From: Onchidella celtica
Taxonomy: Eukaryota; Mollusca; Gastropoda; Systellommatophora; Onchidiidae
Direction of reading: 5' to 3'
Assembly (NCBI GenBank): GCA_963931925.1
Contig: OZ007581.1
Span: 21,444,447 to 21,508,446 of the forward strand
Length of the DNA stretch: 64,000 nt
Made by a program: the position numbers and the translations under genes. Below are positions 16,940 through 61,465 of this stretch, piece by piece (positions within the stretch are counted from its first letter, which is position 1; each line of letters starts with the position of its first letter). Below the pieces are notes generated by a model, which ran no database searches, was not told where the DNA came from, and saw nothing but the letters and a program-made list of their open reading frames with translations.

Positions 16940-17203
16940 AAAAGACTTCAACAGTAACGAACTTCGAGTTCCTGCTTCGTTAGCAGCACCAAAATCTACA
17001 AACAAAGCGCAAACTACTTCCTTCTACACACTCCAAACCAGCCAAAAGTAAGAAAACGGAAGACAAAGAAAGGTTAGACATGCCTGCCATAGTCTATGAT
17101 GCCATTGATGAGAATGGCGAGCTTATGTGCGCTTTGACACAGATGTCTCATTTACAGAATTGGCCGGGAAATTGGACCACAAGAATGAGAACTTACTGAA
17201 GCC
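16940..17203 (+). pseudogene. Coding-like fragment upstream of the LTR insertion
   Basis: From about 17080 the plus strand has codon-like sequence, including MPAIVYDAIDENGE in one frame and then FTELAGKLDHKNENLL in another, which implies a 1-base indel near 17122. The second frame runs into the LTR insertion point at 17203 and continues open from 24972 on the other side. I do not recognise the family. It may be an older transposon protein or a host exon. The part before 17080 is also open but unassigned. Confidence 0.4.
17199..17203. repeat. Target-site duplication AAGCC, left
   Basis: Exact 5-bp match to 24967-24971. It flanks the LTR element on both sides, as expected for a retroviral-type integrase. 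Confidence 0.95.
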
Positions 17204-18123
17204 TGTCACGAGTGGAGTGAGTGCAATTAAGGGGATTGCTACAGAGCGGGTGTAGAATAAGAAGAGCTCACGACAGACGGATAGGAAAAGACGTGAAAGG
17301 GGAAGAGTAAAAATAACTCATGCAGACAAGTGGGAAAAGCGTGCGTGTATGAGTGGTGTGGAAGTCTGAATGAGGCGAAAGCGCTGGATTACTATCACTG
17401 CAAGTTAGAAGGTCCTAGGGATTGGACCTGTGAATAAAAGCCCATCGGGCGGACATAAAGGGAAGCAGTCGAGAAGACTAGTGAGAGTCTTTCCAGTTAT
17501 GACTGGTGTCGGGGACGGGCCGCAGAGCCACCTCGATGAGCACAGGGGATAGGCCAGCATAGGGCCGGAGGCCACACATAGGCCAGAAGTGAGGCTGTCA
17601 GTGCAGGACAGTAGAGGCACATAAAGTCGTGGCAGTCAGGCCACGGACAGGGACGTAGATATGAGAGTGAATGAGATACTATATTGTTGCCATGTTGATA
17701 GGCTAGTGAACTGATATTATGTTGTTGCCATGTTGATGGCTATGGAAATAATAATGTGTTATTGCCCTGCGGAGGTGCTAGGGGAGTGCTAAGGTGTATG
17801 ACAATAGGAAGGTGATATTGAGAGACTGCGGTGCCAGTGAATCATTAATGTACTATTAAGACCCCGAGGGCAGAGGCTGAGGCCGAAGTGCCTTTAGGAG
17901 TAACTACCGGATTGTGGATCCGAGGGAGCGTGTGTGTGAGAATAAGGCCGTTGTACGGCAGTCATTTCAATAATATAATATATGTAATTGCGCTATTATA
18001 TGTATAATTATGTTTAATAAATGTGTGAGTCTGATGGGTTGTTTTGTTAAGTGTTAAACTTGTTTGTTCGTGATTGTCGTCCTGTCATAAACTATTACAT
18101 TTCCCAGTCTGGGATTTGTGACA
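17204..18123 (+). repeat. 5' LTR (920 bp)
   Basis: It begins TGTCACGAG and ends TTGTGACA, and is about 99.7% identical to 24047-24966. An AATAAA polyadenylation signal lies at 18016-18021. AT-rich TATA-like stretches near 17970-18010 could serve as core promoter, but the transcription start cannot be fixed by eye. Confidence 0.95.
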
Positions 18124-18124
18124 T

Positions 18125-18137
18125 TGGGGGCTCGTCC
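18125..18137 (+). promoter_or_regulatory. Primer-binding site, tRNA-Pro
   Basis: TGGGGGCTCGTCC, one base after the 5' LTR, is complementary to the 3' end of tRNA-Pro. It is the same primer used by murine leukaemia virus and by the minus-strand gypsy element in this window. Complementarity stops at 13 bases, after which the sequence departs from the usual 18-base site. Confidence 0.85.
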
Positions 18138-19055
18138 ATTGTGACTCGTCCATTTTCGTAATATTTAGTTGTAGTTATTTAGTAGTAGGTATTTGTGCTG
18201 TCTTGTTCGTTGGATGAATGGACATTTCATGATATGATTTATGTATATTGATGAATATGTATTGATACATGTATTGCTATGAATAGGTATTAATGTGTAT
18301 TTAAACTTTCCAGAGTGTGTGCGTGCAGCCTGAGGAGACAAGCAGCCAGAGCTCCGATTAAAGGGAGGAGTTTTACTCAAAATTTCAAAAGTTAAGTGAA
18401 AGTCAAAATTTTTGTGCCCTGGATTTTGGGCTGTTCCTTTAATCTGTCTTTTTCCCTGTTTTTGCTGTTTTTGTTGTCGTTATAGGTTATACGGGCGGTG
18501 GCGCGGGTTTGCTGTGTTGAACTTAGTTTATCCTTTTAAAAAAGGTGTGGTAAACTTTGGAACGTCGTTCATCACAGTGAACAGTTCTATAGGGACCTGT
18601 ATTTTTGTTTAGTTGTATCGTCGATATCTTCTCTGTTCCGCAGGAAGACGTATTCTCTTGTCCCTCTTTCTACCTATCTATAGATACGTTCTTTTTTTTC
18701 AGACTCTGTTCTTGTTCGTACCTTGTAGTATAATCGGCGTAGTAGGTTGCATTTTTTTTTCCATTATATTTTCTTTTTTAGGTCTTTGTCCTAGTCTGGT
18801 TCGTTGTCCTTGACGTACTTGTGGTCCTTCTACTGTATTTCTTCATTCTTGTCGTTTCTATTTTCTTTTATAATTAATAGTGCATACATTTTATAGATAT
18901 AGAATTAGTTGTGCTGTAAAGGTAAATTTCTGAATTGTATTCTGAACTGGGTATTGTTATATCTGGTGTGATCTCAGGTCTCTGGTCGTATCGTTAGTGA
19001 TCATACCGACAGGTTGGTCGTCTTATAATAGATACCATAACCATAAATCTGTGAA
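18138..19055 (+). other. Long 5' leader of the Gmr1-like element
   Basis: About 920 bp of untranslated leader between primer-binding site and gag, T-rich in its middle. Open stretches at 18412-18612 and 18613-18813 are hydrophobic because of the T-richness and have no recognised domain. Packaging and dimerisation signals would be expected here, but none can be identified by eye. Confidence 0.6.
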
Positions 19056-20072
19056 ATGGCGGAACTCCAACAACTAATGAAGTTGGGTAAGGAACTTGGC
19101 CTGGAGGGAGAGGAGCTACGCGGCTGGATTAAAGAACAGCAGGCAGAAATGCGCGATGAGCGTGCTAAGGATAGAGAGCGAGAAAAAGAGGCTCAGGTAA
19201 AGGAGTTAGAGGCTAAGCAACAGGAAAGAGAGGCTAAGGCTCAGGAGCAGGAGAGGGAGTTAAAGTTAAGGGAGATAGAAGCTAGGGATAACCAACAGGA
19301 GAGAGAGACGCGCATGAGAATCGCGGAGTTGGAAAGCCAAAAGAATGCGCCAACGGAAGCAGTTGAGCGGCAGGTACACAATAAAGGTGGTGTTAGGATT
19401 AAGCTCCCTACGTTCGACGACCGGAAGGACGACATAGACGCCTTCCTTTACAGGTTCGAACTGAACGCACAATTGCAATGGGGGGAAAATAAGGAATTAT
19501 GGGCCACGTACCTGGCGTCTCTATTGCAGGGGCGAGCGTTAACCTACTTTAAAGAGCTACAGCGCGAAGACGTGCAAGATTATGATAAGCTGAAGGCTTT
19601 GCTGCTTCGCCGATTTGCGCGTACCGAGGAATATTTCCGGGAGCAGTTTAGGCGAGCACGTGCGGATACCAGGGAGGACTTTGCTGCCTTCGTCGCGAGA
19701 CTAACGGAGTATTTCGCGAACTGGGTAGACTTGGCGCATGTGGGCACGGATTTCGCTAAAATGAAAGACTTAATGATCCGGGACCAGCTGTACGCGTCGT
19801 GCCACAAAGATCTGGTGGCTTTCCTGAAAGAGAACGAACCCGCGACGGTGCAGGAGGCGTCTAAGTTGGCGGAGGCATACCGTACGGCGCATCCGTCCAA
19901 ACCGGTCGCCAGGGCGTACGTCCAAGATGCTGGGTACGTCGCCGTTGTCGAGGGGTCGCCGGCAGGACTCAGGGACAGGTCGCGTCATCGTGGTGCCTAT
20001 AGTGGGCAAGCCCAGGGGCAGCATAGGGGCTATCACCAATCACCGGCATATGGATCCGGTAAGTTTGACTAA
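19056..20072 (+). CDS. gag: Gag capsid protein with SCAN-like domain
   Basis: A 338-residue protein. Residues about 20-97 form a highly charged Glu/Lys/Arg/Gln coiled coil. Residues about 113-190 look like the capsid N-terminal domain (KLPTFDDRKDDIDAFLYRFE). Residues about 193-275 resemble the SCAN/capsid C-terminal dimerisation fold (YFREQFRRAR, then MIRDQLYASC and VQEASKLAEAY). The tail is Gly/Arg/Gln-rich, and the protein ends before any zinc knuckle. The nucleocapsid knuckles are in the next ORF, so unshifted Gag lacks them. The start is the first ATG after the leader and is followed by an uninterrupted frame. The 3' end overlaps the pol frame by up to 245 bases (19828-20072). The SCAN relationship follows published work linking SCAN to Gmr1-like gags; I judged it by pattern only. 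Confidence 0.88.
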   Translation: MAELQQLMKLGKELGLEGEELRGWIKEQQAEMRDERAKDREREKEAQVKELEAKQQEREAKAQEQERELKLREIEARDNQQERETRMRIAELESQKNAPTEAVERQVHNKGGVRIKLPTFDDRKDDIDAFLYRFELNAQLQWGENKELWATYLASLLQGRALTYFKELQREDVQDYDKLKALLLRRFARTEEYFREQFRRARADTREDFAAFVARLTEYFANWVDLAHVGTDFAKMKDLMIRDQLYASCHKDLVAFLKENEPATVQEASKLAEAYRTAHPSKPVARAYVQDAGYVAVVEGSPAGLRDRSRHRGAYSGQAQGQHRGYHQSPAYGSGKFD

Positions 20073-23000
20073 TGGCCGGGGGCGAGTTGTGACCTTTGCC
20101 GATGACCGACGGCATAGGGACTCTAGTTCCGGTCGCGAGGGGTCACGGGGACCCAGGCCTAGGGCAGCACAGGGAGCGGACTTTTGGACTTGCGGACGCG
20201 TGGGTCACTTTTCGCGCGAGTGTAGGGCCGCGAAGTGTTGGAACTGCGGAAGAGCAGATCACATCAGCGTGAACTGCCCTGCAGGTAGGATAGCGGCGAA
20301 CGCGGACAGTAGCTCCAGTCCATGTTCCCCAAATAAATTTCATCATGCGGCTGCGTGCGTTACATCGGACAACGGAGGCGGACAGTATTCTAAGTGTCCC
20401 AGTTGTGAGAAGTTATTATCTTCCGGTGTTTTACCTTGTGGGAGAAAGATCCCCGTTATAAATTCATGTCATACAGGAGGTGGTCTTAGGGTTTATCCGG
20501 GGTTTGTTGTGGACGAACCGGTCTCGGTTTTACGAGATACAGGATCTACCGTTGTGGGAGTGCATAGGGACTGCATTCGGGATTCACAGCTTACAGGTGA
20601 GACTGTCCCGTGCATCCAATTTTCGGGGGCCATTGAGAAATTACCCATGGCAAAAATAATGATAGATACACCTTTCCTTAGCGGGGAAGTCGAAGCAGTC
20701 GTTGGTTGTTTTCCAGGCGCCCAGCTCATCATTGGGAATGTATCACGGGTAGTTTCCCCTTCCGTTGAGAACGTGCAAGCATGGTCCCAATCAAAAGGTA
20801 TTGACTTTTGCGCCGCGGTCGAAACACGGCGACGGGTAGCTGATAAAGATAAGATTAGACCTTTCGCTACGCCAGCGGTCAACCTAGATATCACGCCAGA
20901 GCGCTTGGCGAGATTACAAAGGGAGGACCCATCATTAAACCCATGTTTTGGGGAAGCGCGAACCGAGAAAACGAGGAGATATAAGAACGGGTCGTCCTCC
21001 TTTATTGTTCAGGCGGGCATTCTGTTCCGTAAGTACGTAACGGTGTCCTCCACTTTAAAGCAGGTCGTTGTGCCAGCGTTGCTGATCGCAACAGTATTGC
21101 ATTTGGCACATGATGTCCCATTAGCGGGTCATATGGGGATAGCTAGAACCAAAGAAAGGGTTCTTAAAAATTTTTACTGGCCATCGATCCACAGAGATGT
21201 GCAGGTCTATTGTAAGACGTGCAGTGCGTGCCAAAAGACGACGCATAAGGGTCGTACACCCCAGGCTCCTCTTCAGAAGATCCCCTCGGTCTCGGAACCG
21301 TTTAAAAAGGTCTCGATAGACCTTGTTGGCCCCATTCACCCAGCGACCGATAGGGGGAATCGATTTTTCTTAACGGTCATATGTAATGCTACGAGATGGC
21401 CAGAGGCGGTTCCTCTGCGGACCATAACGTCTGAGGCGGTCGCGGAAGCGTTGTTTGCAATCTTCGCTAGGGTAGGAATACCAGAGCAAATTCTGTCTGA
21501 TAGGGGCGCGCAATTTACGTCGCAGATGATGAAGGAATTGTTCCGATTATTCAGTATACAACCCATCACTACCACCCCTTATCATCCGCAGGCTAATGGC
21601 ATGTGCGAGAGATTGAACTCGACGTTAAAGTCGATGCTGCGTAAGGTAGCTGCTGATCGCCCTAAAGATTGGGATAGATATATCCCTGCAGTGTTATTCG
21701 CGTACAGAGAGGTACGGCAGGAGTCAACGGGATTCTCGCCGTTCGAAATGATGTACGGTCGTAGTCCTAGGGGCCCAACTGATGTTCTTCGGGACATGAT
21801 GACGTCGCCATCATCGGGAGACGATGAGCAGATTTCGGTGTTTCAGTACCTTGTTGATTTAAGAGAAAGACTATCTTCAGCGCGCACTATAGCACAAGAA
21901 GCTTCTGGTATCGCTTCGAAAAGAGCAAAAGACTATAAAGATAGAGGGTCCAAACTGAGAATTTTTAAGCCAGGAGACAAGGTTCTGCTGTTGCTACCTA
22001 CGGACCATAATAAGTTATTGATGATATGGAAAGGCCCTTATGTTATTGAGCGAGTTGTTTCAAAGGTAGATTACGCTATCCACATTGATGGAGCGAGTAA
22101 GGTTTTCCATGTTAATATGCTACAGAGATTTTATGAGAGACCACAGTATCTGTGTGCACAGACAAGACCAAAGGAGACTGTCTTCTCTACCGCTTGTACG
22201 GGGGTCGTAGACCAGTTGGACTGTGACGTAAGCGACACCGAGGCGCAGGAGGAGTTACAAATTCAATTGCCGGAGTTAACTCCGACACAAGGTTACAGGG
22301 ACGTAAAAATTAACCCTGACCTTACGAGTTCAAGGAGTAGGGAACTTGAGACCCTGTTAGCGTCATTTCCGGATGTTGTTACGGATTTGCCGGGTAGCAC
22401 TACGGTGATCCAGCACCAAATAAAGTTGACTTCGGATAAGCCAGTATTTCTTAGACCGTATCCGTTGCCTTTTTCTTCGAGAGATAGAGTCATAAAGGAA
22501 GTTGAGTCAATGTTGAAGTTAGATGTGATAGAACCATCAACATCGCCGTATTCATCACCCATCGTCCTCGTGAAAAAACTTGATGGATCGGTGCGGTTCT
22601 GTATTGATTTTCGAAGATTGAACACTATTACGGTAGGCGATAGGGAGCCTATTCCGTTCCAGGAGGAATTAATAGCTTCATTGGCCGGGTCCACGTGGTT
22701 TTCCAAGATAGATTTGACGAAAGGGTATTGGGAAATCCCGCTTACTGAGGAGTCTAAACAATACACGGCGTTCCAAACGCCCATTGGATTATTCCAATTT
22801 AAGGTCATGCCATTTGGGTTGGTAAACGCGCCAGCGACGTTTGCACGATTAATGAGATTAGTGTTGAAGGACATACCTAATGTCGTGTCATTCTTTGATG
22901 ATATAGCATGCCATACGTCGACATGGTCTGATCATATTCAGACACTAACAGTAATTTTTCAACGATTACGTCATTTTGGGTTAACTGCTAAACCCGCAAA

Positions 23001-23691
23001 GATGGATTTGGCATGTCCAGAGATAATATTCTTAGGACATATTGTGGGTAGAGGTGTTCAGAGACCTGAAGAAACAAAAATTGACAAGTTAGTAGGGTTG
23101 CAAATCCCTAAAACAAAGAAACAAGTCAGAAGCTTAGTGGGAATTTTAAATTATTACAGAAAGTTCATTCCAAATTTTTCCTCCTTGTCATCTTCTCTTA
23201 CTGACCTTACTAAGAAGGGACAACCCGATAAGGTCCAGTGGACGTCTGAATGTCAGACAGCATTTGATAATTTGGTGACAGCATTATCATCGTCACCCAT
23301 CCTGATATTACCCGATTTTCGATCTAATTTTATCCTCAGAACGGATGCGTCGGACTCTGGTGTCGGCGCTTGTCTTCTACAGGAGAAGAACGAATGTCTC
23401 CATCCTGTATGTTATGTCAGTAGGAAGTTATTGCAGAGAGAAAGAAAGTATTCTGTGATAGAGCGTGAGTGTCTTGCCATTGTCTGGTCCGTCCAGAAAC
23501 TAGGACGTTATCTCATGGGACGAGAATTTTATATCCAGACAGACCACAAGCCACTGACATTTTTGTCGAAGAATCGTTCGTCCAGCCCACGCTTGTCTAG
23601 ATGGGCATTGGCTTTGCAGCCGTATACCTTCGTTATTCAACCAATTCCAGGAACCAGCAATCATATCGCCGACTACCTTAGTCGAGCCTAG
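19828..23691 (+). CDS. pol: Pol polyprotein, integrase upstream of RT
   Basis: The frame is open from the codon after a stop at 19825 to 23691; the first ATG is at 19927. It is in the +1 frame relative to gag, so expression probably needs +1 frameshifting in 19828-20072. Numbering from the ATG: zinc knuckles at 86-117 (the first lacks its leading Cys, the second is CWNCGRADHISVNC); protease DTGST at 204-208; integrase zinc finger H395/H402/C432/C435; catalytic D465, D525, E561 with DD35E spacing; a GPY module at 703-705; RT about 800-1060 with catalytic D929 and FFDD at 989-992; RNase H with D1140, E1181 and D1206; end at ADYLSRA. All catalytic residues expected of protease, integrase, RT and RNase H are visible. 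The protein matures virions, copies RNA to DNA and integrates it. Confidence 0.92.
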   Translation, partial: KRTNPRRCRRRLSWRRHTVRRIRPNRSPGRTSKMLGTSPLSRGRRQDSGTGRVIVVPIVGKPRGSIGAITNHRHMDPVSLTNGRGRVVTFADDRRHRDSSSGREGSRGPRPRAAQGADFWTCGRVGHFSRECRAAKCWNCGRADHISVNCPAGRIAANADSSSSPCSPNKFHHAAACVTSDNGGGQYSKCPSCEKLLSSGVLPCGRKIPVINSCHTGGGLRVYPGFVVDEPVSVLRDTGSTVVGVHRDCIRDSQLTGETVPCIQFSGAIEKLPMAKIMIDTPFLSGEVEAVVGCFPGAQLIIGNVSRVVSPSVENVQAWSQSKGIDFCAAVETRRRVADKDKIRPFATPAVNLDITPERLARLQREDPSLNPCFGEARTEKTRRYKNGSSSFIVQAGILFRKYVTVSSTLKQVVVPALLIATVLHLAHDVPLAGHMGIARTKERVLKNFYWPSIHRDVQVYCKTCSACQKTTHKGRTPQAPLQKIPSVSEPFKKVSIDLVGPIHPATDRGNRFFLTVICNATRWPEAVPLRTITSEAVAEALFAIFARVGIPEQILSDRGAQFTSQMMKELFRLFSIQPITTTPYHPQANGMCERLNSTLKSMLRKVAADRPKDWDRYIPAVLFAYREVRQESTGFSPFEMMYGRSPRGPTDVLRDMMTSPSSGDDEQISVFQYLVDLRERLSSARTIAQEASGIASKRAKDYKDRGSKLRIFKPGDKVLLLLPTDHNKLLMIWKGPYVIERVVSKVDYAIHIDGASKVFHVNMLQRFYERPQYLCAQTRPKETVFSTACTGVVDQLDCDVSDTEAQEELQIQLPELTPTQGYRDVKINPDLTSSRSRELETLLASFPDVVTDLPGSTTVIQHQIKLTSDKPVFLRPYPLPFSSRDRVIKEVESMLKLDVIEPSTSPYSSPIVLVKKLDGSVRFCIDFRRLNTITVGDREPIPFQEELIASLAGSTWFSKIDLTKGYWEIPLTEESKQYTAFQTPIGLFQFKVMPFGLVNAPATFARLMRLVLKDIPNVVSFFDDIACHTSTWSDHIQTLTVIFQRLRHFGLTAKPAKMDLACPEIIFLGHIVGRGVQRPEETKIDKLVGLQIPKTKKQVRSLVGILNYYRKFIPNFSSLSSSLTDLTKKGQPDKVQWTSECQTAFDNLVTALSSSPILILPDFRSNFILRTDASDSGVGACLLQEKNECLHPVCYVSRKLLQRERKYSVIERECLAIVWSVQKLGRYLMGREFYIQTDHKPLTFLSKNRSSSPRLSRWALALQPYTFVIQPIPGTSNHIADYLSRA

Positions 23692-24032
23692 GGGAAGATT
23701 TCGGGAGCTTATACATCGGAGGACAGGAACATTGACAGGATCTGTGTGAATGAGTCGACTTTAAAATATTGACATTATAAATATGATATGAAGAATGGTT
23801 GATAGGTTGAGTGGTTTTTGATTCTGTATTAGATATTGTGTTTAGTCAGCTATTCATGATGTGACACATATATGCATATTGCAGGCCATATTGATCCCCA
23901 TATTTTCCCCTGATTTCGGTATTCTATATACTAGGGGAACTGCTAGGTCATTTTTCTAGTGTAGGTATTGCTCACGCTCACTCGTTGACAGTCATCTTGA
24001 TGCGATTTGAAATTAATTGCATTAATTTTTTT
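23692..24032 (+). other. 3' untranslated region of the Gmr1-like element
   Basis: About 340 bp between the pol stop and the purine-rich tract. No envelope or other ORF. Confidence 0.8.
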
Positions 24033-24046
24033 GGGGTGGGGGATGA
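24033..24046 (+). promoter_or_regulatory. Polypurine tract
   Basis: GGGGTGGGGGATGA lies immediately before the 3' LTR and is the expected plus-strand DNA primer. Confidence 0.85.
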
Positions 24047-24966
24047 TGTCACGAGTGGAGTGAGTGCAATTAAGGGGATTGCTACAGAGCGGGTGTAGAA
24101 TAAGAAGAGCTCACGACAGACGGATAGGAAAAGACGTGAAAGGGGAAGAGTAAAAATAACTCATGCAGACAAGTGGGAAAAGCGTGCGTGTATGAGTGGT
24201 GTGGAAGTCTGAATGAGGCGAAAGCGCTGGATTACTATCACTGCAAGTTAGAAGGTCCTAGGGATCGGACCTGTGAATAAAAGCCCATCGGGCGGACATA
24301 AAGGGAAGCAGTCGAGAAGACTAGTGAGAGTCTTTCCAGTTATGACTGGTGTCGGGGACGGGCCGCAGAGCCACCTCGATGAGCACAGGGGATAGGCCAG
24401 CATAGGGCCGGAGGCCACACATAGGCCAGAAGTGAGGCTGTCAGTGCAGGACAGTAGAGGCACATAAAGTCGTGGCAGTCAGGCCACGGACAGGGACGTA
24501 GATATGAGAGTGAATGAGATACTATATTGTTGCCATGTTGATAGGCTAGTGAACTGATATTATGTTGTTGCCATGTTGATGGCTATGGAAATAATAATGT
24601 GTTATTGCCCTGCGGAGGTGCTAGGGGAGTGCTAAGGTGTATGACAATAGGAAGGTGATATTGAGAGACTGCCGTGCCAGTGAATCATTAATGTACTATT
24701 AAGACCCCGAGGGGAGAGGCTGAGGCCGAAGTGCCTTTAGGAGTAACTACCGGATTGTGGATCCGAGGGAGCGTGTGTGTGAGAATAAGGCCGTTGTACG
24801 GCAGTCATTTCAATAATATAATATATGTAATTGCGCTATTATATGTATAATTATGTTTAATAAATGTGTGAGTCTGATGGGTTGTTTTGTTAAGTGTTAA
24901 ACTTGTTTGTTCGTGATTGTCGTCCTGTCATAAACTATTACATTTCCCAGTCTGGGATTTGTGACA
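24047..24966 (+). repeat. 3' LTR (920 bp)
   Basis: Same length and ends as 17204-18123, with about three substitutions between the two. Confidence 0.95.
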
Positions 24967-24971
24967 AAGCC
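24967..24971. repeat. Target-site duplication AAGCC, right
   Basis: Exact match to 17199-17203. Confidence 0.95.
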
Positions 24972-27019: not shown

Positions 27020-28999
27020 AAATTGACTAATTTCCAGATGTTGGCTGAGACTGAGATTAAAGAACACTCACCATCCAAATCATGTGAATTAGACCCACTT
27101 CCGATGACATTTGTGAAATTATATCTTGATGAGTTATTGCCATCCATTATTCATGTAATCAATGTTTCTCTGAGAACTGGTGTTGTACCAGATTCTTTCA
27201 AACAGGCAATTGTGAAATCTTTGATTAAAAAAGCTGGGCTCGACGTAAACAATGTGAAAAATTATAGGCCTGTGTCAAACTTACCAATTATGCCCAAGAT
27301 CCAAGATCCTTGAAAAATCAGCGTTGAGGCAAATCATGGAGCACATTGAAATAAATAATTTGAATGAGAAAATTCCAGTCGGCATACAAAAAGGGCCACA
27401 ATACTGAGACTGCCATCCTCAGAGTAGTGAATGATATTCTTCTAGAGCTCGATGACAAAAGAGTATGTATTCTTGTACTTTTGCCTTTGATACTTTAGAT
27501 CATAACATTCTATTACATCGTTTAGAAAAGACCTTTGGTATTGCCGGAAATGCACTGTCATGGTTTCAGTCCTATCTTTCAAATAGAAAACAATGTGTGA
27601 GAGTCAATGATAGTTGTTCCAAACACTCAATTTTGGGGTACCTCAAGATTCTGTTTTGGGCCCAATTCTTTTCAACCCAACAAGAGGTTCAGAAAATATG
27701 ATCTTCAATACCACCAATATGCTGATGATAGCCAAATATATAAAGCATGTGATCTTGAAAACCTAGATGATACGATAAAAACAACGACACAAGAAGTTAA
27801 GAAATGTATGGATGATAATAAACTAAAACTAAATGATGAGAAAACAGAAGTTATGCTCATAACGAATCCAAAACAAAAAATCAATCCACCAGATCTCAAT
27901 GTAAATGGCCATCTTATTAAAATGACAAGTAAAGTAAAAGATCTGGGCACAATTTTAGATGCAGAGATGTCAATGTCAGCTGTGTAAGAATCTTAATTTC
28001 CAGTTACGGAAAATCAGCAGTATACGGCAATGCCTAACTACTGAAGTAACAAAACAGCTTGTAACATCACTGTTTCTCTCTAGGCCGGATTATTGTAACA
28101 TACTGCTAAGTGGTCTTCCAAAAAGTAAAATCAATAAGCTTCAGTTAATCCAAAATAATGCTGCAAGAAGAAAAAGGATAGATCACATAACACCAATATT
28201 TAAGGAGCTCCACTGGCTACCTATTGAGCAACGAATATAATATAAATTGGCTTTATTTTGTTATAAATGTGTCAACATGTTGCCAGAGTATATTTAAGAA
28301 CTTATAGAACTACATCGCCCTGCAACCTTAGACTAAGGTTTTAGTGAACCTAAAAAGTTTTGGTGAAAGGGCTTTCAGCCATGTTGGGCCCAGGGTGTGA
28401 CACGAACGAGATTCCTATAAGATAAGATAAGATAAGATAAGATAAGATAAATTTTATTCGTCCTTGTACAAGGAAATTTGTTTTGATCATTGAATACAGT
28501 TACAGAAGCAGAAAGTATGATACATAGCGCGCACACACACATATATACACACACACTGATAAATTAACTAAATTAACAAAATTAACAGTGCACACAATAT
28601 GCTTCCCTAACTAAAAGACATTGACCTGACACGCAGGACATAATTCAACTGTGCACAGATTACGATCAAGATGACGACATTATTGTAACATCCTAGTTGA
28701 TGATGGAATAAACGATTTAAAGTAGCGCTCAGTTTTAGTTTTCTTTGACAACAGCCTTAAACTTCTTAAACTTTAGATGTCCGCAGTTCGCAAGTTTAAA
28801 AGGATGTTAAAATGTCATTTGTATGAGAGTTTCTAGTCTATGTAAAAGCTATCTATTATTATTATTATGTGTGTATCAATGTGGGTTGTGTGTTTGAGTT
28901 TACCCATGTATTTTTTGACATGTTTCTGTAAAGTGCATAGGGCATTTTGTAATGGATATGCGCTATATAAATGCCATCCATTATTATTATTATTATTAT
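27020..28999 (+). mobile_element. L2/CR1-like LINE, 5'-truncated, interrupted near its 3' end
   Basis: Plus-strand pieces in several frames follow L2/CR1-type RT order: SPSKSCELDPLP, then NYRPVSNLPIM, HNILLHRLEKTFGI, ALSWFQSYLSNRKQCV, QYADDSQIY (active-site YADD at 27718-27729), VKDLGTILDAEMSM, RPDYCNILLSGLPKS and HITPIFKELHWLP. After an interruption at about 28417-28770 the C-terminus resumes (KFKRMLKCHLYESF, stop at 28836), followed by a 3' tail with GCGCTATATAAATG and a (TTA)n repeat at 28980-28999. That tail is typical of this group. The 5' half with the endonuclease is missing and several frameshifts inactivate the copy. Confidence 0.8.
28417..28770 (-). mobile_element. 3' tail of another LINE inserted antisense
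   Basis: The interruption begins with six GATAA units (28421-28450). On the minus strand it would read as an AT-rich 3' untranslated region ending in a TTATC microsatellite preceded by ACAAGGACGAATAAAAT, the usual 3' end of many invertebrate CR1/Rex-type LINEs. No coding domain remains. The right boundary near 28770 is where the host LINE frame resumes. Confidence 0.55.
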
Positions 29000-29393
29000 C
29001 TAAAACAGTCATGAAAAAGCATTAATTTTACATGTAATACGTAACATTGAGAAATCGATGCAATCGACAATAAGAATGAACAAGACGACAATAATATCTG
29101 TGATTACATGGCAAGAGCAAATGTACTTAAACGACTTAATTTTGCAAACCAAGTAGGCATTCAGGAAAAACTGGAAGCTCTTTCAAAAAGGAAAAAAATA
29201 TGGTCCAACTATGTACAGGGTTGCCGGCAGCAGCGATGGGTACGGGGAGCTGGTCCTTCAAAAATGGCTATCTGCCTTGCGTGATGTCTGCAACATTCAC
29301 GAGGGACATGGAGACCTGTTTCGAAGATGGGCGCGGGTGACCTTGCTATAGAAGGTCTCTTTATATGGTAGTTAATCTTTTCAAGCCGTTCCC
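29000..29393. other. Unassigned DNA
   Basis: AT-rich, then from about 29210 a GC-richer piece whose open minus-strand frame (29209-29424) shows no known domain. It abuts the LINE RT at about 29394. Confidence 0.4.
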
Positions 29394-30147
29394 ATGAATC
29401 CAGTAGAAGAACTTGGATATGCACTATCTAAACTTAATAATGAGTCAGCACCTGGAAGTGACGGACTGACGACTCCCTTCTATAAGTGTTTCTGGGGACG
29501 ACTTAAGACCTTGTTGTGGGAAAGTCTGTCCGACTCAGTGATAAAGGGAGAGCTTACAACAACGCAAAAAAGGGGCGTAATTACATTGCTGCGTAAGGGA
29601 AACAACTTAGAGAGAAATAATATAAATAATTGGAGACCAGTGAGTCTTACTAATACAGATTATAAAATTTTCTCTAAATGGTTAGCGCTGAAACTTCAAA
29701 GGGTTATGGAGAAACTTATACATAATAATCAGGTGGGTTTTATCAAAGGCAGATCGATCTCAAATTTGATTCGTACTATAGAAGACCTTGGTAAGGAAGG
29801 AGGAAGGTGGGGCAGGTATCTTAGTCTCGCTAGATTTCCAAAAGGATAGTATTGATAAAAAAGCAATCATATATGATGCACTTGAAGCTTTCAATTTTGG
29901 CAATAACTTTATTCAATATATTAAAACATTGATACGAAATACTGAAAGCTGTGTAAAAAATGGAGGCTGGGTCTCAAACTGGTTTAAAACGGAACGCAGA
30001 GTGAGGCAAGGCTGTTGTGTCAGCCCTCTACTTTTTATTTTAGTGGCAGAAATTATGGCCATTAAGGTAAGATATAATCCGCATATAAAATGCATACAAT
30101 TGAAAAATACCTTGGATAATAATATGCTGAGTGTAACAATTTCATGA
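29394..30147 (+). pseudogene. Tx1-group LINE reverse transcriptase fragment, plus strand
   Basis: Two overlapping frames give LNNESAPGSDGLTTPFYK, TTTQKRGVITLLRKGN, NNWRPVSLTNTDYKIF, NNQVGFIKGRSISNLIR and VRQGCCVSPLLFIL. These are RT motifs up to just before the YADD box, which is absent. The frame breaks once near 29800-29850. The fragment ends about where a minus-strand endonuclease fragment of the same LINE group starts (30150), giving an inverted junction. Confidence 0.75.
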
Positions 30148-32315: not shown

Positions 32316-33040
32316 ATGTTCAAACCGCCGCAGCCATTTGCATTTCAAGATCCGTCTGCATGGCCTGCTTGGGTGGAAAGATTCAATCGCTTCAGGCTTG
32401 CGTCAAAGTTGAGCAAAGAAGATGGCGAAATTCAGGTCAGTAGCTTACTGTACTCAATGGGAGCTGACGCTGATAAGATTTTAGCACAGTTTGAAATGAG
32501 TGATGCCGACAAGAAAGACTATGAAAAGGTCAAGAAAAAGTTCGATGAACATTTCATTCCGAAGAGAAACGTGATTCACATTGGAGCAACTTTCCACAGT
32601 AGGAACCAGAAAGAAGGAGAAACAGTTGAACGTACTGTTCAATGCTTTGTATGAATTAGCAGAGCATGCTGCTTTCACAGAAAAGAAGGACACTATTACA
32701 GATAGACTGGTCCTCGGGCTCAGAGACAAAGAGATTTCTGAAAAGCTTCAGTTAGAGATTGCGCTGACTTTAGGGACGGCAATCACCATGTCAAGGCAGC
32801 GTGAACAAGTGAAGAAAGAAATACAGGAACAAAGAGGTGCAACGTCAGTGGATTGAGTCCGCTTCCGACCCGGTAGTCGAGGAGGGAAGGGATCATCACA
32901 CGAAGGTCAAGGTGCACACGCGCATACTCCAGAGAAGTTTGCGTGCAAGAAATGCTGAGCTACCCATGAAAAGAGGAAGTGTCCAGCATACCAGAAGAAA
33001 TGCCACAAGTGCGGAAAGATGTCACATTTTGCAAAGATGT
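32316..33040 (+). pseudogene. gag: Gag of a Steamer-like (Mag-lineage) element, broken
   Basis: The gag starts at ATG 32316 with an aromatic/Pro-rich N-terminus (PFAFQDPSAWPAWVERFNRF), which is characteristic of Mag-lineage gags. The frame shifts near 32640 and continues at 32650-32856 (ALYELAEHAAF, DRLVLGLRDKEISEKL). A Cys-His knuckle follows: an intact CHKCGKMSHFAKMC at 33001-33042, and before it a second knuckle interrupted by a stop. Gag forms the particle and binds genomic RNA. Two or more frameshifts make it non-functional. Confidence 0.72.
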
Positions 33041-33042
33041 GC

Positions 33043-33545
33043 AAGTCGAAGACAAAGAAACAAGATGAAGTTACATCAGAGCCAGAGCCAGCAAAAGAAC
33101 CAGAGCCAGAAAATGAGCCTGAGAAAGAGCCTGAGCCTGAAACAGAGTATTTCATAGGAAGCGTCGAGTCCAATGAACCACCATGGAGGGTGAATTTGAG
33201 TCTAGAAGGAACAAGTGTCAACTGGAAGATTGATACAGGGGCCGACGTCAACCTGATCAGCAAATCTACATGGGCAAAGCTAGAAAAGCCGAAGCTGCTT
33301 CCAACGAATCGTGTCAACCTGGTGAGTCCAGGGGGCAGAGTGAAAACTCTAGGTCACTTCACAACAAAGTTTGACAAGAAGATTGATGCTACAGTGTACG
33401 TCATTGATGACGACTCTGACAGTCTTCTTAGCCGCAGTACAGCGACAGCGCTGAACCTTGTACAGAGAGTGAATTCAGTCACTTTCGCGTTAGTGAAGAA
33501 TAAAGCCCGTCAGAATAAAGATCAAAGAAGGTACACAGCCGTACA
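33043..33545 (+). pseudogene. Protease region of the Steamer-like element, truncated
   Basis: In the frame of the intact knuckle, a Glu/Pro-rich spacer is followed by the aspartic protease signature IDTGADVNLIS (Asp-Thr-Gly at about 33230). The protein continues to about 33545 and then changes abruptly to unrelated AT-rich DNA. RT, RNase H and integrase are all absent. The element is fused at this point to the truncated Polinton. Confidence 0.72.
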
Positions 33546-33564
33546 GTATCACTACAGCAAGAAG

Positions 33565-34957
33565 GGTGGCTTATTAATTTTGTTACTTGTTCTTCATCTG
33601 ATAATAGTTTTAACTCAATTCGATCTCTTATGTTTTCAAGAGTTTTTTCCATAAAATGCCTTATTCATTAATTTCCAAAGATTCTTTTCAAAGTCTGATT
33701 TTGACTTAGTTATTTGATTGGTATTAAAATCGATGTATTCTTTTAACCAAGGTCTTTCTTTAAAAGAAATAATTCTATGAACTTTAGAAATTTGTAATCC
33801 AAGGAATTTAAAACACTCTAATAATTTATAATGTATAATAGAGTTTTTTTTTATTTTTTAAATTTAGTATTAGTTTTTCATTTCCTACTTTTTTGTTTTC
33901 TAATTGTAAATAGCTTATATCGTCTTCATTTATTTTTAGTTTCTCTGGAGCTAAAGGAAATCTACTGGTGTTTACTTTTGCTTTAACTGTGTAATCAAGA
34001 TCAAATTCGATAATATATCCTCTTCCTTCAGGAACCTCCTTTAGGAATGATTCTTTTTCCCATTTAAAATCTCCAACCGGTAAAGATTCTGACATTCCTC
34101 CTCCATATAAATTATTTGCATCGAGGTACAGTAAATAATTTGATCTCTTTTTAGGGTCATAATCTGGTAAATATTTATTATTAGCTTTTACATATCGAGG
34201 TCCTAAAACTCCTGAATAACCGCCTCTTATTCCCTTCTCAAACATTAGTAGCATATCTAAATCTGTTAATAATTCTAGTTTAATTCCCGTATATTTTAAT
34301 CCACATTGCCAAGTTAATCCGGGAGCAGAGAAACAATAACACGGGTCAATTTCATGATTGGTTGGGAAAAATTCTCTAAACTTTTCAAATACATCGGCTA
34401 AAGGCAAGAACATCTGTTTTTAGATACAAATCATGATAATCTTGTAAAGTTTTACATTGAAAAGTATTCCAAACATTTACAGCATGTTGGTATTCGTCTT
34501 CTGAAATTCCTTCTTTTCTTAAAGTTGAGTACCAAGGATTTATCCTTGTGGCGTTGGATGGTATTTGTTTTTCTTTTAATCGATTAATTGAATCAACATA
34601 TTCATAAGGATAAACACTTTTTCTTTTGAGTAAATGGAATGTTTCCGGGAAATGTTCTTTCAAGATTTTGAAATCATCCATAGATTTTACGATACCGTCC
34701 AAAGAGTTTGATAAAAACCTATAACTATCCAGGAATCTTAATTTTCTGTAATAATTTCCATATTCAAATGAAATATTATATTCTTCAGATGCAAGCAATG
34801 AAAGTTTATTGTATTTATCTTCATATTTCATTATTTCTTCTATTATGAAATGAAAATCATAACCACTGGCATTGTGAAAAAATACTGGAATTACTTTAGA
34901 TTGTTTTCCTTCTTTGGTATTACAAGATTGACAAAGCAGCTCCTCCATACTTTCCAT
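33565..34957 (-). pseudogene. polB: Protein-primed DNA polymerase B, broken and 3'-truncated
   Basis: In minus-strand order: an exonuclease motif FFHNASGYDFHFI near 34860, a later exonuclease motif YLKTDVLAF at about 34410, then a frame change, then the polymerase A motif YLDANNLYGGGM at about 34100, and in a further frame LWKLMNKAFYGKTLE at about 33640 (motif B). The C motif with its catalytic Asp pair is lost because the gene ends at the junction with the Steamer-like fragment (about 33550-33565). At least two frameshifts are present. In Polintons this enzyme replicates the element from a protein primer. Confidence 0.83.
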
Positions 34958-39384: not shown

Positions 39385-40451
39385 TCAAAATACTCTACTT
39401 AGGAAGTCGTCACCGACATTTTCCTTGCCTTTGACATAATTAATATTTAATCCTGAATCGATATGGCTGTAAAAATAAACTCCATCGTAATAGCTTTGGA
39501 TTGTCAAATCTAGCAGAATTGAGTTTTGCCAGTCATCGATTACCCAGTCAGGACCAAAATCTTCTTGATCTGGGAAACTTGTGTTGTTTTCTGGCTGTAT
39601 TTCATCTGGTGCTGGAATTATGTGATCCAGATGTACTGAAAATTCTCTGTGACCTTGCCTGACAATATAAGTCACAGGACCTTGACGCTGCAGTACGCTG
39701 GGAAATTTCTAACCAGAACAGTGTCACTAGCTTCAAAATTCCTAGATGTTTTAGTTCCTCGGTCGTGAAATTTCAAACTAACTTCTTGTCTTTTCTCCAC
39801 CTGCTGTGCAAGATTTGGCTTCAATAGGCTTAGCTTTGTTCTAGGATGTTCTGCGGGTGATCGGCCAGTCGTTGAATGCGGTATATTCCGATAAGCCATT
39901 AAAAATCTAGGCAGAATTTGTCCTTTTTTTAAAGCCATTTTTAGTTCTTGGACCATTCGTTCTGCTAATCCATTGCTGGCAGGGTGATATCTTGGAATGC
40001 GGGTATGCTTTACTCTGTTTTCTCTTAATAAGAAATGAGCAAATTCTTCAGAGGTGAACTGGGGTCCATTGTCCGAGACCACTTCTTCAGGAAGTCCAAA
40101 ACGAGCGAAAACTGTTCACATAGCGTCAATAGTTTTCTTAGAAGTTGTATGTTTCATTGCCTCCTGAGTGAGTTCGCTGCGAATGTGACTGTACGGTACA
40201 AAGTCTGGATTCCTATCTTGTGCAGGCCATCCAGACAGAACTCTGTCCAGAATCTGACTCAACAGAGGATCTTTGGATGTAGCCACACGTGTCAAAGGCA
40301 ATTCTTCCAGAACTCTGTTGTAGAACTGAGCCTCTGTTTTGCCGTTCTCTTCCTGGTGAACCACCTGTGGTAATCTTGAAAGTGCATCGGCATTGGCATG
40401 ATCATCGGTGCGTTTATACCCGATGTTGTACTGATATCCAGCAAGTTTCAA
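39385..40451 (-). pseudogene. RNase H end and integrase of the minus-strand gypsy element
   Basis: The first part carries the RNase H terminus (KRTDDHANADALSRLP), then a linker. Without a zinc finger it passes into the integrase core at TIDAM, and after a frameshift VVSDNGPQFTSEEFAHFL (second Asp) and HPASNGLAERMVQELK (Glu). The first catalytic Asp block is deleted. The C-terminal domain includes VRNFP and later VHLDHIIPAPDE. Past that point the same frame shows KGKENVGDDFLSRVF, which again resembles an RNase H terminus. That may be chance. Confidence 0.75.
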
Positions 40452-41075
40452 TGCCCATCTTTGGATTCGGGCTGCCGCAACTGGTGGTATTCCTTTCTTA
40501 TGTCCGAATATAGCTTCTTCAGGACTTGCCGCAAAATAAACTTATGCTTAGCTTCATCTGACGATGTGATTAAAATGTCCTCCAAATAACAGGTATACCT
40601 TGAAGAAATGTCCATTGCTGACTGGAAGATGGCGGGAGCACTAACAACTCCAAATGCCAATCTGTTCATCTGGTACAGACCTTTGTGTGTGTTGATCGTC
40701 AAACATGCCTTGGATTCTTCGGCTAGCTCCATCTGCTGGTATGCCGCTTCAGATCTATCTGGGAGAAATACTTCTTGCCACTCAGATTGGAGAACAGATC
40801 TTGAGGCGTAGGCAGTGGGTGCTGGTTTATGTGGAGTTGGGAGTTATTTTGTAATCTCCACACACTCTGACCTTCTTTTTCTTGTCATCACACACAACCA
40901 CAATAGGTGTAGCCTTGTTCACTTGTTTGAACTTTCGTGATTACCTTCTGTTTTTCCAGTCTGTCTAACTCTTCTTCTATTTTCTGTTTGATTGCATATG
41001 GTACGTGTCTGGGTCTGAAAAACTTAGGTGCAGCATCTGGTTTCAACTTTATTTCTGCTTTAATGTTTTTCATCC
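40448..41075 (-). pseudogene. Reverse transcriptase of the minus-strand gypsy element
   Basis: The RT start is LKPDAAPKFFRPRHVPYAI with EEELDRLEKQKVI (41073-40950). The palm follows in other frames with KKKVRVCGDYK, then MNRLAFGVVSAPAIFQ and YLEDILITS, where the usual YxDD reads YLED. After KHKFILRQVLKKL the sequence jumps to the RNase H terminus, so the thumb, connection and most of RNase H are deleted. The substitution in the active site and the frameshifts make it inactive. Confidence 0.78.
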
Positions 41076-41175
41076 GCCCCAGTGCTTCTTTGAAAACAGT
41101 TGACTGAAATTCTTGTAGTATCTCGTGAACTGACTCTTTGTCGTGAACTTTGAAAATTCTTGGCCTTAATGTCCT

Positions 41176-41472
41176 TCAACCAATTTCTTCCAACAATTGG
41201 GTATTTCTCCAGGAACATCTGCCACAATTAATTTCAGTGTTTTTCTTTGAGAGCCATATTCCACTTGGACTTGACTTTCTCCTATTACCTTGATGTACTG
41301 TCCTCCATATGATTTGAATCTGGTTCCTCAAGGACGCAGGTCTAGTTTGTTTCAATCTGTCAACAACAGTGTGCGGTATCAACGATCTGCTGGCCCCTGT
41401 GTCTATCAAGAAATCTATCTGGTTGCCATTTACACTGATTGGAACCTTAAAGCCAACTTCAGTTTTCTTCAC
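41176..41472 (-). pseudogene. Aspartic protease of the minus-strand gypsy element
   Basis: A 98-residue open frame with FLIDTGASRSLIPHTVVDRL, the retropepsin active-site loop (Asp-Thr-Gly-Ala) and hydrophobic strand. The second half drifts out of frame (a Gly/Ser-rich tail not typical of the fold), so the protein is partial. Confidence 0.7.
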
Positions 41473-41594
41473 TTCTGAGGCAGTAAACAGATACTCAACA
41501 CTTTCTTCTTCTTCTGCGTTGGTTTTCGATTGCGTTGATTTTTCCCTGCTTCTTGGCTACGTTTTTCATTGTGGTCTTGCCTTTCGTTGTGGTT

Positions 41595-42230
41595 CTACAC
41601 GCTTTTGCCACATGTTTTGCACTTATACGTTTTGAACTTACATGTGTCGGCTAAGTGTTGGCCTCCACACCGGTAGCATTTTCTGTGCCAATGGTTGGGA
41701 GTCGGTTTCTTTTCTTTTATTGCACTCACCGCAGCACTAGCGCCAGGTGTTCCATGGTGAATATCTTTAGTCTGTTGTTGGGCCATTTCTTTCTGAATTG
41801 CCAGATCCACTATTTCTTCAAATTTTGTTCCTTCTGCTTTTAGCCGTCTTCTTACAGCTGACTCACTCCTGACTCCACATACAAATTTGAAGAATTCACC
41901 AAATTTGCATTTCACGGCTAAGCGGCCCAGTTCTGGTCCAAACTGTGCCACTGTTTCTCCCTCCTTTTGTTTCCTGCAATGAAGTTTCTGCAATGATTAA
42001 GGGTTTGGGAGCTTTCAGGTTTTCGACAATAACCCTGTACTCCGTTTCGCAAGGTTTCTCTGGAGACAGTAGATTTTTCTGTAAAGTTCACTAATGAAAG
42101 TCGCAACCTTCACCGTATCTTCGGTCACTTGTCAGACCGTCATTGTGGCATCGAAACGTTCGACATAGCTTTCTATGTCGTCTTCGTTTGAGTTGAATGG
42201 CTCAAACAATACATGGCTATGGCTAGCCAT
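41595..42230 (-). pseudogene. gag: Gag of the minus-strand gypsy element
   Basis: The start at 42230 gives MASHSHVLFEPFNSNEDDI and a short N-terminus ending in a stop near 42134. The capsid continues in other frames. An open stretch at 41993-41595 contains FGPELGRLAVKCKFGEFF and a zinc knuckle CYRCGGQHLADTC with an unusual three-residue gap before His, followed by an incomplete second knuckle (CKTCGKSV, stop). Gag would assemble particles. Here it is split by at least one stop and a frameshift. Confidence 0.7.
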
Positions 42231-43811: not shown

Positions 43812-44399
43812 CTACAATTGGGTGTGGATTTCATTCCCCCAGTGATGATTCGAAGGCGATTTTAGATGCGTTCCACTCTCTGGAAATTGCTCTTTGCCGC
43901 TGCTCCCCACGCTGAGATACCATACTCCAGAACTGGACGTTTTCTTGAGTATGTTTTGTGTTGCTCCCCAGTCTGTACCACCAAACTTTTTAAAGAACAC
44001 AATCCGCTGCATTGCTTTAGTTTGGGTCTTTTCCAGATGGGCTTTCCATGTCAGTCGTTGGTCAAATGTGACTCCGAGGTAATGAGGGTGACTCGTCTTT
44101 GATGAGCTCGTTGTTGATTTTGAGTTTAGGTGACTGCATTCTGGTGGAGAGACTGTATAAGTTGTTTTCTTGGCATTCAGCTTCATGTTCCATGTTGATG
44201 TCCACTGTTGTAGGTTATTTAGGGTAGACTGAAGAGGCATCTGAGCTGTGCCAAGGCTTGTCTCCGAACAGATTAGTGCAAGATCATCAGCATACATTCC
44301 CGCTTTCACTCTTGGAGTTAGAATTTCCTTTATGTCATTCATGAAGAGGGCGAAGAGTGTGGGGGATATCACTCCTCCCTGAGGTCTTGTCTGAAGCAT
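43812..44399 (-). pseudogene. LINE reverse transcriptase core
   Basis: A 195-residue open frame. PQGGVISPTLFALFMNDI (residues 6-23) and MYADDLAL (35-42, catalytic YADD) are typical of I/Jockey-superfamily RT, followed by WNMKLNAKKTTY and HYLGVTFDQRLTWKAHL. The latter is the conserved block after the palm. The protein then becomes atypical (Ser/Gly-rich) by frameshift. The fingers domain before residue 6 is missing through deletion. Confidence 0.75.
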
Positions 44400-44821
44400 T
44401 GGTATCCTCTGATGTTAAATCTGCTGTTGCTCGAGATATGAGTTTCTTGGTCTCCAATGCAATCTGTATTTTTTCGTTGTGAAGTTTGTATGTGAGTGCC
44501 GTCTTTTTTATTGTATATTCCCTCAGCATTCCATTGTAGTATTTTCAAAACGTTACCTTGTTTTCTTTCCTGCACTGCTATGGGTGTGCCTTTGTGGCCA
44601 GTTGTTTTCTTTTTCTTCTTTGCTCGACTCCTGGTTCCCCAAGTAGAGATCGATCGACCACCAGTAGTTGGGGGTGGGCTCCTTCGACGCATAGAGCCCG
44701 GCACTTCACCCGCCTGGCGGGACTTCACAGGCAATCTAACCACATCTACCATTCTGATACTTCTTGTCTGACATGTCGAAGTAATTTTCGTGTGCTGAGT
44801 TTTTGGGTTCGGTTGTGACAC
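44369..44821 (-). pseudogene. LINE ORF2 N-terminus (endonuclease start)
   Basis: A 150-residue frame with a basic, Ser/Thr-rich first part, a run of five lysines, and then KILQWNAEGI, the first conserved block of APE endonucleases containing the catalytic Asn. The frame soon changes to non-homologous sequence and joins RT sequence near 44400, so the endonuclease core is deleted. Confidence 0.6.
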
Positions 44822-60503: not shown

Positions 60504-61260
60504 ATGACAAAAAACAAAAATAAATTCCACCTCGGCCGCCGCGTGCAAAAACAAGGGTCGCGCCACACAGTGAGGAACCAGGCTGTGTGCAGCGATAAGT
60601 TAGCGCCTGGAACAAACAAAAGCACCCTAAATATATTGCAGCTTAACATATGCGGAATCTCAAAGAAGAAAACAGAGCCTGCAAACTTACTTAACTTAAA
60701 AAAGGTCCATATAGCCCTTATTCAAGAAACCCTCCACAAAAACACTGATCCCCACATCAGAGGATACACATCCTATCCGTGTAAGTGCACAGAATGCCGA
60801 GGCATAATAACCTACATCAGAAACGATCAACAGGGAATGGTAGAAAACATAACAACTGACAACCCGTTAGAGCTCCCGAAAACAACTTTGTCTTGTGGTA
60901 CAAAACAAAAAATTTACCATCTATAATGCTTACAACCCACCTCAAAACGAATGCAGCTTTCAAAACTTCCCTGAGTCAGAATTCCAGAAAACAATAATTG
61001 CTGGAGATTTCAACGGCCAGTCAACACAATGGGGATATAACAGATCTAATAAAACTGGAAAAGCAAAAAAAGAGCTATGCGGAAGTACAAACCTAGTAGT
61101 ACTTCAAAATGAGAGCTCTGTACTCACACTCCTTCATAGGGCCCATAACACTCTGAGCAGACCAGACCTGACAATTACATCAGCAGATCTCCTACACAAG
61201 CAAACAACAGAGGTCCTTGATGGCTTAGTTGGTGATCACAGACCTATCCAGAAGACTGCT
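60504..61260 (+). pseudogene. LINE endonuclease domain (I/Jockey type)
   Basis: The ATG at 60504 starts a basic N-terminus, then TLNILQLNICGISKKK (catalytic Asn block), KVHIALIQETL (catalytic Glu) and GYTSYPCKC. After a frameshift near 60890 it continues with FTIYNAYNPPQNE, IIAGDFNGQSTQWGY, SRPDLTITSADL and VGDHRPI (catalytic His). All endonuclease blocks are present but in two frames. The copy ends right after the domain in an AAAGT-rich stretch (about 61270-61290), so RT is missing. Endonucleases of this kind nick the insertion site. Confidence 0.78.
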
Positions 61261-61465
61261 GGATCGGAAAAAGTAAAGTAAAAGTAAAGTATGGCGCCAC
61301 TCCAGCCCGAAAGTTTGGTTAGTGCAGGTGCACAGATGGTTGCAAAGTTCAGGAAACAGACAAATAATCAGGGTTTAGTATCATACAATAGATAAGGAAA
61401 TGATACTGAATGGTGCAAAGGATTGAATATTTGATTTGCGCCCCCCCTCCCCGCACCCTCACAAC

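Follow-up and report, generated by a model that had tools for sequence, protein, structure and literature searches.

We analysed a 64-kb window, by which we mean the whole stretch of 64,000 nt taken from the genome of Onchidella celtica (contig OZ007581.1, positions 21,444,447 to 21,508,446 of the forward strand), and focused on a long terminal repeat (LTR) retrotransposon that occupies positions 17204-24966 on the plus strand. An original prediction, made from the sequence alone, had placed the element at exactly these coordinates and had described it as a young, apparently intact Gmr1-like retrotransposon, that is, a Ty3-type element whose integrase precedes its reverse transcriptase (RT). 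The two LTRs (17204-18123 and 24047-24966) are 920 bp each, run from TGTCAC to GTGACA with the usual TG...CA ends, and differ by 3 substitutions, as had been predicted. The perfect 5-bp target-site duplication (TSD) reported earlier was also found, with AAGCC at 17199-17203 on the left and at 24967-24971 on the right. A 13-nt primer-binding site (PBS), TGGGGGCTCGTCC (18125-18137), starts one base past the 5' LTR and complements the 3' end that ARAGORN assigns to a tRNA-Pro(GGG) gene in the O. celtica genome. Adjoining the 3' LTR is a purine-rich stretch, GGGGTGGGGGATGA (24033-24046), presumed to be the polypurine tract (PPT). The element thus has the paired LTRs, PBS, PPT and TSD of an LTR retrotransposon, the PPT by position only. 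Assuming a neutral rate of 1-3 substitutions per billion sites per year, the 3 differences in 920 sites correspond to an insertion age of roughly 0.5-1.6 million years, and they agree with the young insertion that had been proposed. Both LTRs also contain a 37-bp tandem repeat of 2.4 copies (17676-17766 and 24519-24609).

Two overlapping open frames lie between the LTRs. The first (19056-20072, 338 aa) encodes the gag part, with an N-terminal stretch that by eye is charged and coiled-coil-looking and a SCAN domain (PF02023) at residues 192-279 (19629-19892). The domain scored 33.8 bits with a cut-off of 27, in agreement with the link between SCAN and this type of gag made in the original prediction. 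A search for SCAN in PDB with single-sequence phmmer gave only chance coiled-coil matches. The second frame carries a CCHC zinc knuckle (20236-20277) and the motif LRDTGS (20530-20547), which we take to be that of a putative protease; Pfam gave no protease match in this region. These are followed in the same frame by the integrase H2C2 zinc domain (PF17921, 21070-21243) and the integrase core (PF00665, 21295-21612) with its D,D(35)E motif (spacing D-59-D-35-E), then by RT (PF00078, 22570-23046; catalytic FFDD at 22891-22902), and then by RNase H (PF17917/PF17919, 23239-23625; TDAS at 23341-23352). The Pfam matches of pol are above chance (E-values of 3.8e-12 for rve, 1.6e-29 for RVT_1 and 2.2e-36 for RT_RNaseH), and they confirm the predicted HHCC and DD35E integrase ahead of RT and RNase H in one pol frame. 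The predicted GPY module was weakly supported by profile: a putative GPY-like integrase C-terminal region lies at 22033-22185, where the models PF22938 and PF24626 matched only below their own cut-offs. The order of domains taken alone resembles that of Ty1/copia elements. We rejected membership in that group, because the RT match is to RVT_1 and the best PDB match is Ty3. RVT_2, which we take to be the copia RT model, was absent among Pfam matches at E values up to 1.

The gag-pol junction was searched in the genome, and the best 40 of 850 first-look places were scored, namely the window and 39 others. As read from spans, the net junction length is 23 bp longer in 34 of these 39 copies and 11 bp longer in the other 5, and relative to either length the window copy is shifted into the same wrong frame. 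In 8 of 8 fetched copies the junction was 23 bp longer than in the window and open in one frame throughout the piece. The frame break of the window copy lies near the end of the region where its two frames overlap (19876-20072), and no microhomology was seen at the edges of the length change as aligned. A protein search with the integrase-RT part, in which the best 50 of 20321 first-look places were scored, returned the window once and 49 other copies at 99% amino acid identity. The open frame is 1287 codons long in the window, at least 1500 codons in 44 of these 49 copies, and 964-1399 codons in the remaining 5. Since the other copies are longer at the junction and most of them have a single frame that reaches 1500 codons, the reading of a gag frame plus a pol frame is a misreading. 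Gag and pol stand in different frames because the window copy is short at the junction, and the two frames are one split gag-pol gene. In the pol frame the first ATG, at 19927, lies upstream of the break and so is probably not a real start. The earlier description of the element as intact with both frames open was therefore not upheld: the change of frame occurs in none of the 39 other scored copies, and the window copy lacks the complete gag-pol reading frame of an autonomous element.

We also considered that the element might be intact, with separate gag and pol joined by programmed frameshifting. Both frames are indeed open, and their overlap is about 200 bp long. However, by length gag and pol are in one frame in 39 of 39 other scored copies, the 8 fetched junctions are each open in one frame, and of the 21 homologous proteins that were printed 18 had been deposited as single proteins 1404-1515 aa long, the other 3 being shorter. 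Given the junction lengths and the one-frame sister copies we rejected programmed frameshifting, which we regard as extremely improbable. The case also calls for caution, in that two overlapping open frames in a young copy can mimic a gag/pol pair and yet be one broken gene.

The genome that was searched has 1,140,862,475 bases in 43 contigs, and the published O. celtica assembly is given as 1141.02 Mb in 114 scaffolds, with 18 chromosomes and a 13.99-kb mitochondrion (PMC12744200). Apart from the mitochondrial contig C43 (13,988 bp), all matches listed fall on contigs C1-C18. The LTR query gave 1709 first-look places, in addition to the counts above for the junction and the integrase-RT protein; none of these counts is a copy number, and that for the protein may include other elements. 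Of the best 40 LTR places, which were scored as those most like the window and are hence biased to young ones, 30 were fetched, and 20 of them could be paired by position into ten elements, the window copy included. All ten have perfect 5-bp TSDs and 0-3 differences between their LTRs. Among the ten unpaired LTRs, 5 are solo LTRs with a TSD. The LTR of the window copy falls in a small subgroup: its 5' LTR differs at 3-7 sites from 8 of 28 other LTRs and at 13-20 sites from the remaining 20. The family is abundant and the window copy is young.

Some further observations concern the LTRs and leaders of the family. Two leader variants are found 3' of the LTR (18124-18150 in the window; loci L019-L046): TTGGGGGCTCGTCCATTG in the LTR subgroup of the window copy and CTGGGGGCTCGTCC, followed by different bases, elsewhere. 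At C13:1959954-1967346 a family copy seems to be inserted into the LTR of another copy, with LTR fragments directly outside both ends. The 15-base tRNA-Pro 3' end occurs 2057 times in the genome and its reversed control 0 times, which is far above what tRNA genes likely explain; many LTR families of the host probably prime with tRNA-Pro. ARAGORN detected a tRNA in 0 of 4 loci with the 15-base motif and in 1 of 6 loci with a 19-base motif. A scan of the 64-kb window with Rfam gave no match.

We are highly confident that the element belongs to an abundant O. celtica family of Gmr1-like LTR retrotransposons, which are integrase-first and of Ty3 type, and that this copy is both young and defective. 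Members of this family would normally make one Gag-Pol protein, with a coiled-coil gag that has a SCAN-like capsid domain, a zinc knuckle, protease, integrase, RT and RNase H. We infer from these parts that the family RNA would be packaged in particles and that its reverse transcription would be primed by tRNA-Pro; integration produces a 5-bp duplication of the target. The window copy is a recent insertion in which the junction length change, seen in no other scored copy, splits the frame of the polyprotein, and because of this split it probably cannot make its own Gag-Pol. It would move, if at all, only by means of proteins supplied by sister copies with open frames.

The place of this family among Ty3-type elements was assessed with public proteins and with loci of the same genome. 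A protein search scored 7971 proteins, of which 4536 had E <= 1e-10, and the best 120 were listed. In all 120 the RT match starts only after the end of the integrase match, and by hand count 77 of them carry SCAN. The integrase-first architecture is found in public proteins of Littorina, Pinctada, Pecten, Argopecten, Mizuhopecten, Ylistrum, Crassostrea and Haliotis asinina. As a contrast set we fetched nine gypsy loci of the O. celtica genome, kin of an RT-first fragment in the window and selected so that their open frames were long and their identities varied; RT precedes integrase in 9 of 9. The top RVT_1 matches of the genome (L001-L008) were dropped as tree references, being long interspersed nuclear elements (LINEs) by sequence. 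The RT and integrase trees were built from 49 rows: the window, 15 mollusc and 9 echinoderm proteins, 14 proteins without an organism in their name, the 9 RT-first loci, and Ty3. Of the listed proteins 38 were used: the 24 with an organism in their name, in each case a mollusc or an echinoderm, and the 14 best of the rest. The split between integrase-first and RT-first elements has support of 95/97 in the RT tree and 99/99 in the integrase tree. This split, the position of integrase upstream of RT-RNase H, and the SCAN-bearing gag agree with the Gmr1-like architecture of the original prediction. Long branches make some exact places unsure, namely those of Ty3 in either tree and of three RT-first rows in the integrase tree. 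A search of viral contigs for relatives of pol gave no match.

Several points weigh against this assignment or parts of it. The trees contain neither Gmr1 of Gadus morhua nor other vertebrate members, nor named CsRn1 or Mag elements. They also differ in how near to the window they place the Littorina elements: the RT tree joins the window, two proteins of Littorina saxatilis and 8 others in one group at 100/99, whereas in the integrase tree the window's subclade of 7 branches apart from the Littorina rows. Of the 43 listed homologues in which SCAN was not detected, 21 are shorter than 1250 aa, but 22 are longer and thus long enough for a gag. Finally, the PBS match to tRNA-Pro is limited to 13 nt in the window copy, and pairing stops beyond.

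The integrase-first order might have arisen independently in a mollusc and echinoderm lineage outside the Gmr1 clade proper, and trees without a vertebrate Gmr1 sequence leave room for this. On the other hand, a single branch in each tree sets the mollusc and echinoderm integrase-first elements apart, gag carries SCAN as do over half of the frog Gmr elements (PMC4131045), and the Gmr1 clade has already been placed in an annelid, Lamellibrachia, by RT, RNase H and integrase trees (PMC8220671). We therefore consider an independent origin unlikely. The putative kinship with Gmr1 itself draws on three features: the order that defines the clade, the presence of SCAN in gag, and the echinoderm elements that accompany the family in the trees.

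The Gmr1-like clade of Ty3/gypsy elements (Gmr1 of Gadus morhua) was reportedly described by Goodwin and Poulter in 2002. The position of integrase ahead of RT is the defining feature of such elements (PMC6238403, PMC8220671, PMC2582038). The element in the window shares with them the Ty3-type pol with integrase before RT-RNase H and a SCAN gag like that of frog Gmr elements (PMC4131045); it differs in its gastropod host. The clade was reported in 2013 from crustaceans as the first in protostomes (GyRex4, Gychoro2, GyMaja1 and GyLiva4; PMC3587641), where the hosts are arthropods and GyRex4 is described from its RT/RNase H part only. In a lophotrochozoan it is represented by LGF3 of Lamellibrachia luymesi, an annelid, with fewer than 25 elements reported (PMC8220671). 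A polychaete survey detected no Gmr1 of its own but names Gmr1 as one of the clades present in several phyla (PMC8556966). Occurrence outside deuterostomes, on which the original prediction had taken this copy to bear, was therefore already published for crustaceans and an annelid, and mollusc proteins with this domain order are public. The window holds a new family member in a gastropod, neither intact nor the first outside deuterostomes, so that the original observation is partly confirmed and its interpretation partly supported.

The main mollusc survey has 21 Gypsy clades without Gmr1 among them and 989 elements, some outside any clade, and one of its unnamed MolGy clades may hold integrase-first elements (PMC6238403). 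Our literature search, with most subscription papers outside its reach, did not turn up a paper that names Gmr1 in molluscs. In a paper on bivalve transposons (PMC10294476) no word starts with Gmr, and in two abalone papers (PMC6328477 and PMC11764566) the search for Gmr1 matched a DOI string only. Among individual proteins, P0017 and P0033 of Littorina saxatilis share the domain order and the well-supported RT clade with the window element, but are 50-51% identical to it in amino acids and fall apart from its subclade in the integrase tree. Yeast Ty3 (PDB 7q5b) has homologous RT-RNase H and integrase. In contrast to the window element, its integrase (1088-1449) comes after RNase H (RT at 584-1009), and its long branch is on the RT-first side of both trees.

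The original prediction had also raised horizontal movement of the lineage, and arrival in the slug by transfer from another marine animal would fit the interleaving of mollusc and echinoderm elements in parts of both trees. A single clade would need one label change, and we counted 5 (RT) or 4 (integrase) for molluscs and 4 or 5 for echinoderms. However, the labels are clustered: shuffled labels needed on average 12.9-13.0 changes for molluscs, with 0 of 500 shuffles as low in either tree, and 8.4-8.5 for echinoderms, with 0 and 1 of 500 as low, although near-copies alone raise such clustering. No close relative from another named host was found among the best 120, the 24 named ones being 47-51% identical; the three best homologues, with host not named, are 56-65% identical. 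In what was searched, no element from a distant host was seen at more than 80-90% DNA identity. We rejected recent transfer, of which the 47-51% identity to named-host relatives gives no sign, and consider that the family is very unlikely to have reached the slug in this way. Older transfers may have occurred, with the mollusc and echinoderm labels clustered and neither forming a single clade.

A lineage whose first descriptions came from deuterostomes gains a gastropod family that has very young insertions and hundreds of candidate places in the genome. A Gmr1-like gag is regarded as the source of the vertebrate SCAN domain (PMC3424704), and since a capsid domain of a mollusc element also scores as SCAN, the raw material of vertebrate SCAN proteins looks widespread. 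Tentatively, and as a possibility that falls somewhat short of probable, the integrase-first order with a SCAN-type capsid may mark an old bilaterian lineage that is diverse in molluscs yet unnamed in their main survey; the SCAN fold would then have existed in retrotransposon capsids long before its adoption by vertebrates, and the slug family may still be spreading.

The host had been predicted to be a probable lophotrochozoan, and the taxonomy of O. celtica (Lophotrochozoa, Mollusca, Gastropoda, Heterobranchia) agrees; the window does not come from a deuterostome, the source that the prediction had named as telling against it. COX1 on contig C43 matches that of O. celtica at 99% identity, and the hits that follow reach at most 93%. 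Exons of mollusc-type haemocyanin are consistent with this host, with 33 genome matches to PF14830 and none in 14 control genomes, those seen by name being microbial. Three clusters of these exons are on a single chromosome, contig C7, near 0.3, 2.5 and 59.3 Mb. The abalone egg-lysin family had no match in the genome and none in the controls either.

Other retroelement fragments are found in the window. A degraded gypsy fragment at 39672-41993 on the minus strand has RT pieces (41097-40511) before integrase (40304-39849), so that a fragment of the usual RT-first order lies 15 kb from the integrase-first element. Relatives of this fragment in the genome are 92-95% identical, with open frames that reach 1346 codons. 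Fragments of LINE-type RT and endonuclease are at 43812-44821 (minus strand) and 60895-61281 (plus strand), and the former resembles, by eye, the best-scoring RVT_1 family of the genome, some copies of which have open frames of more than 1200 codons. On the plus strand, 27607-29849 and 33019-33654 contain RT fragments, one above and one below the Pfam cut-off, and a fragment of a retroelement-type aspartyl protease.

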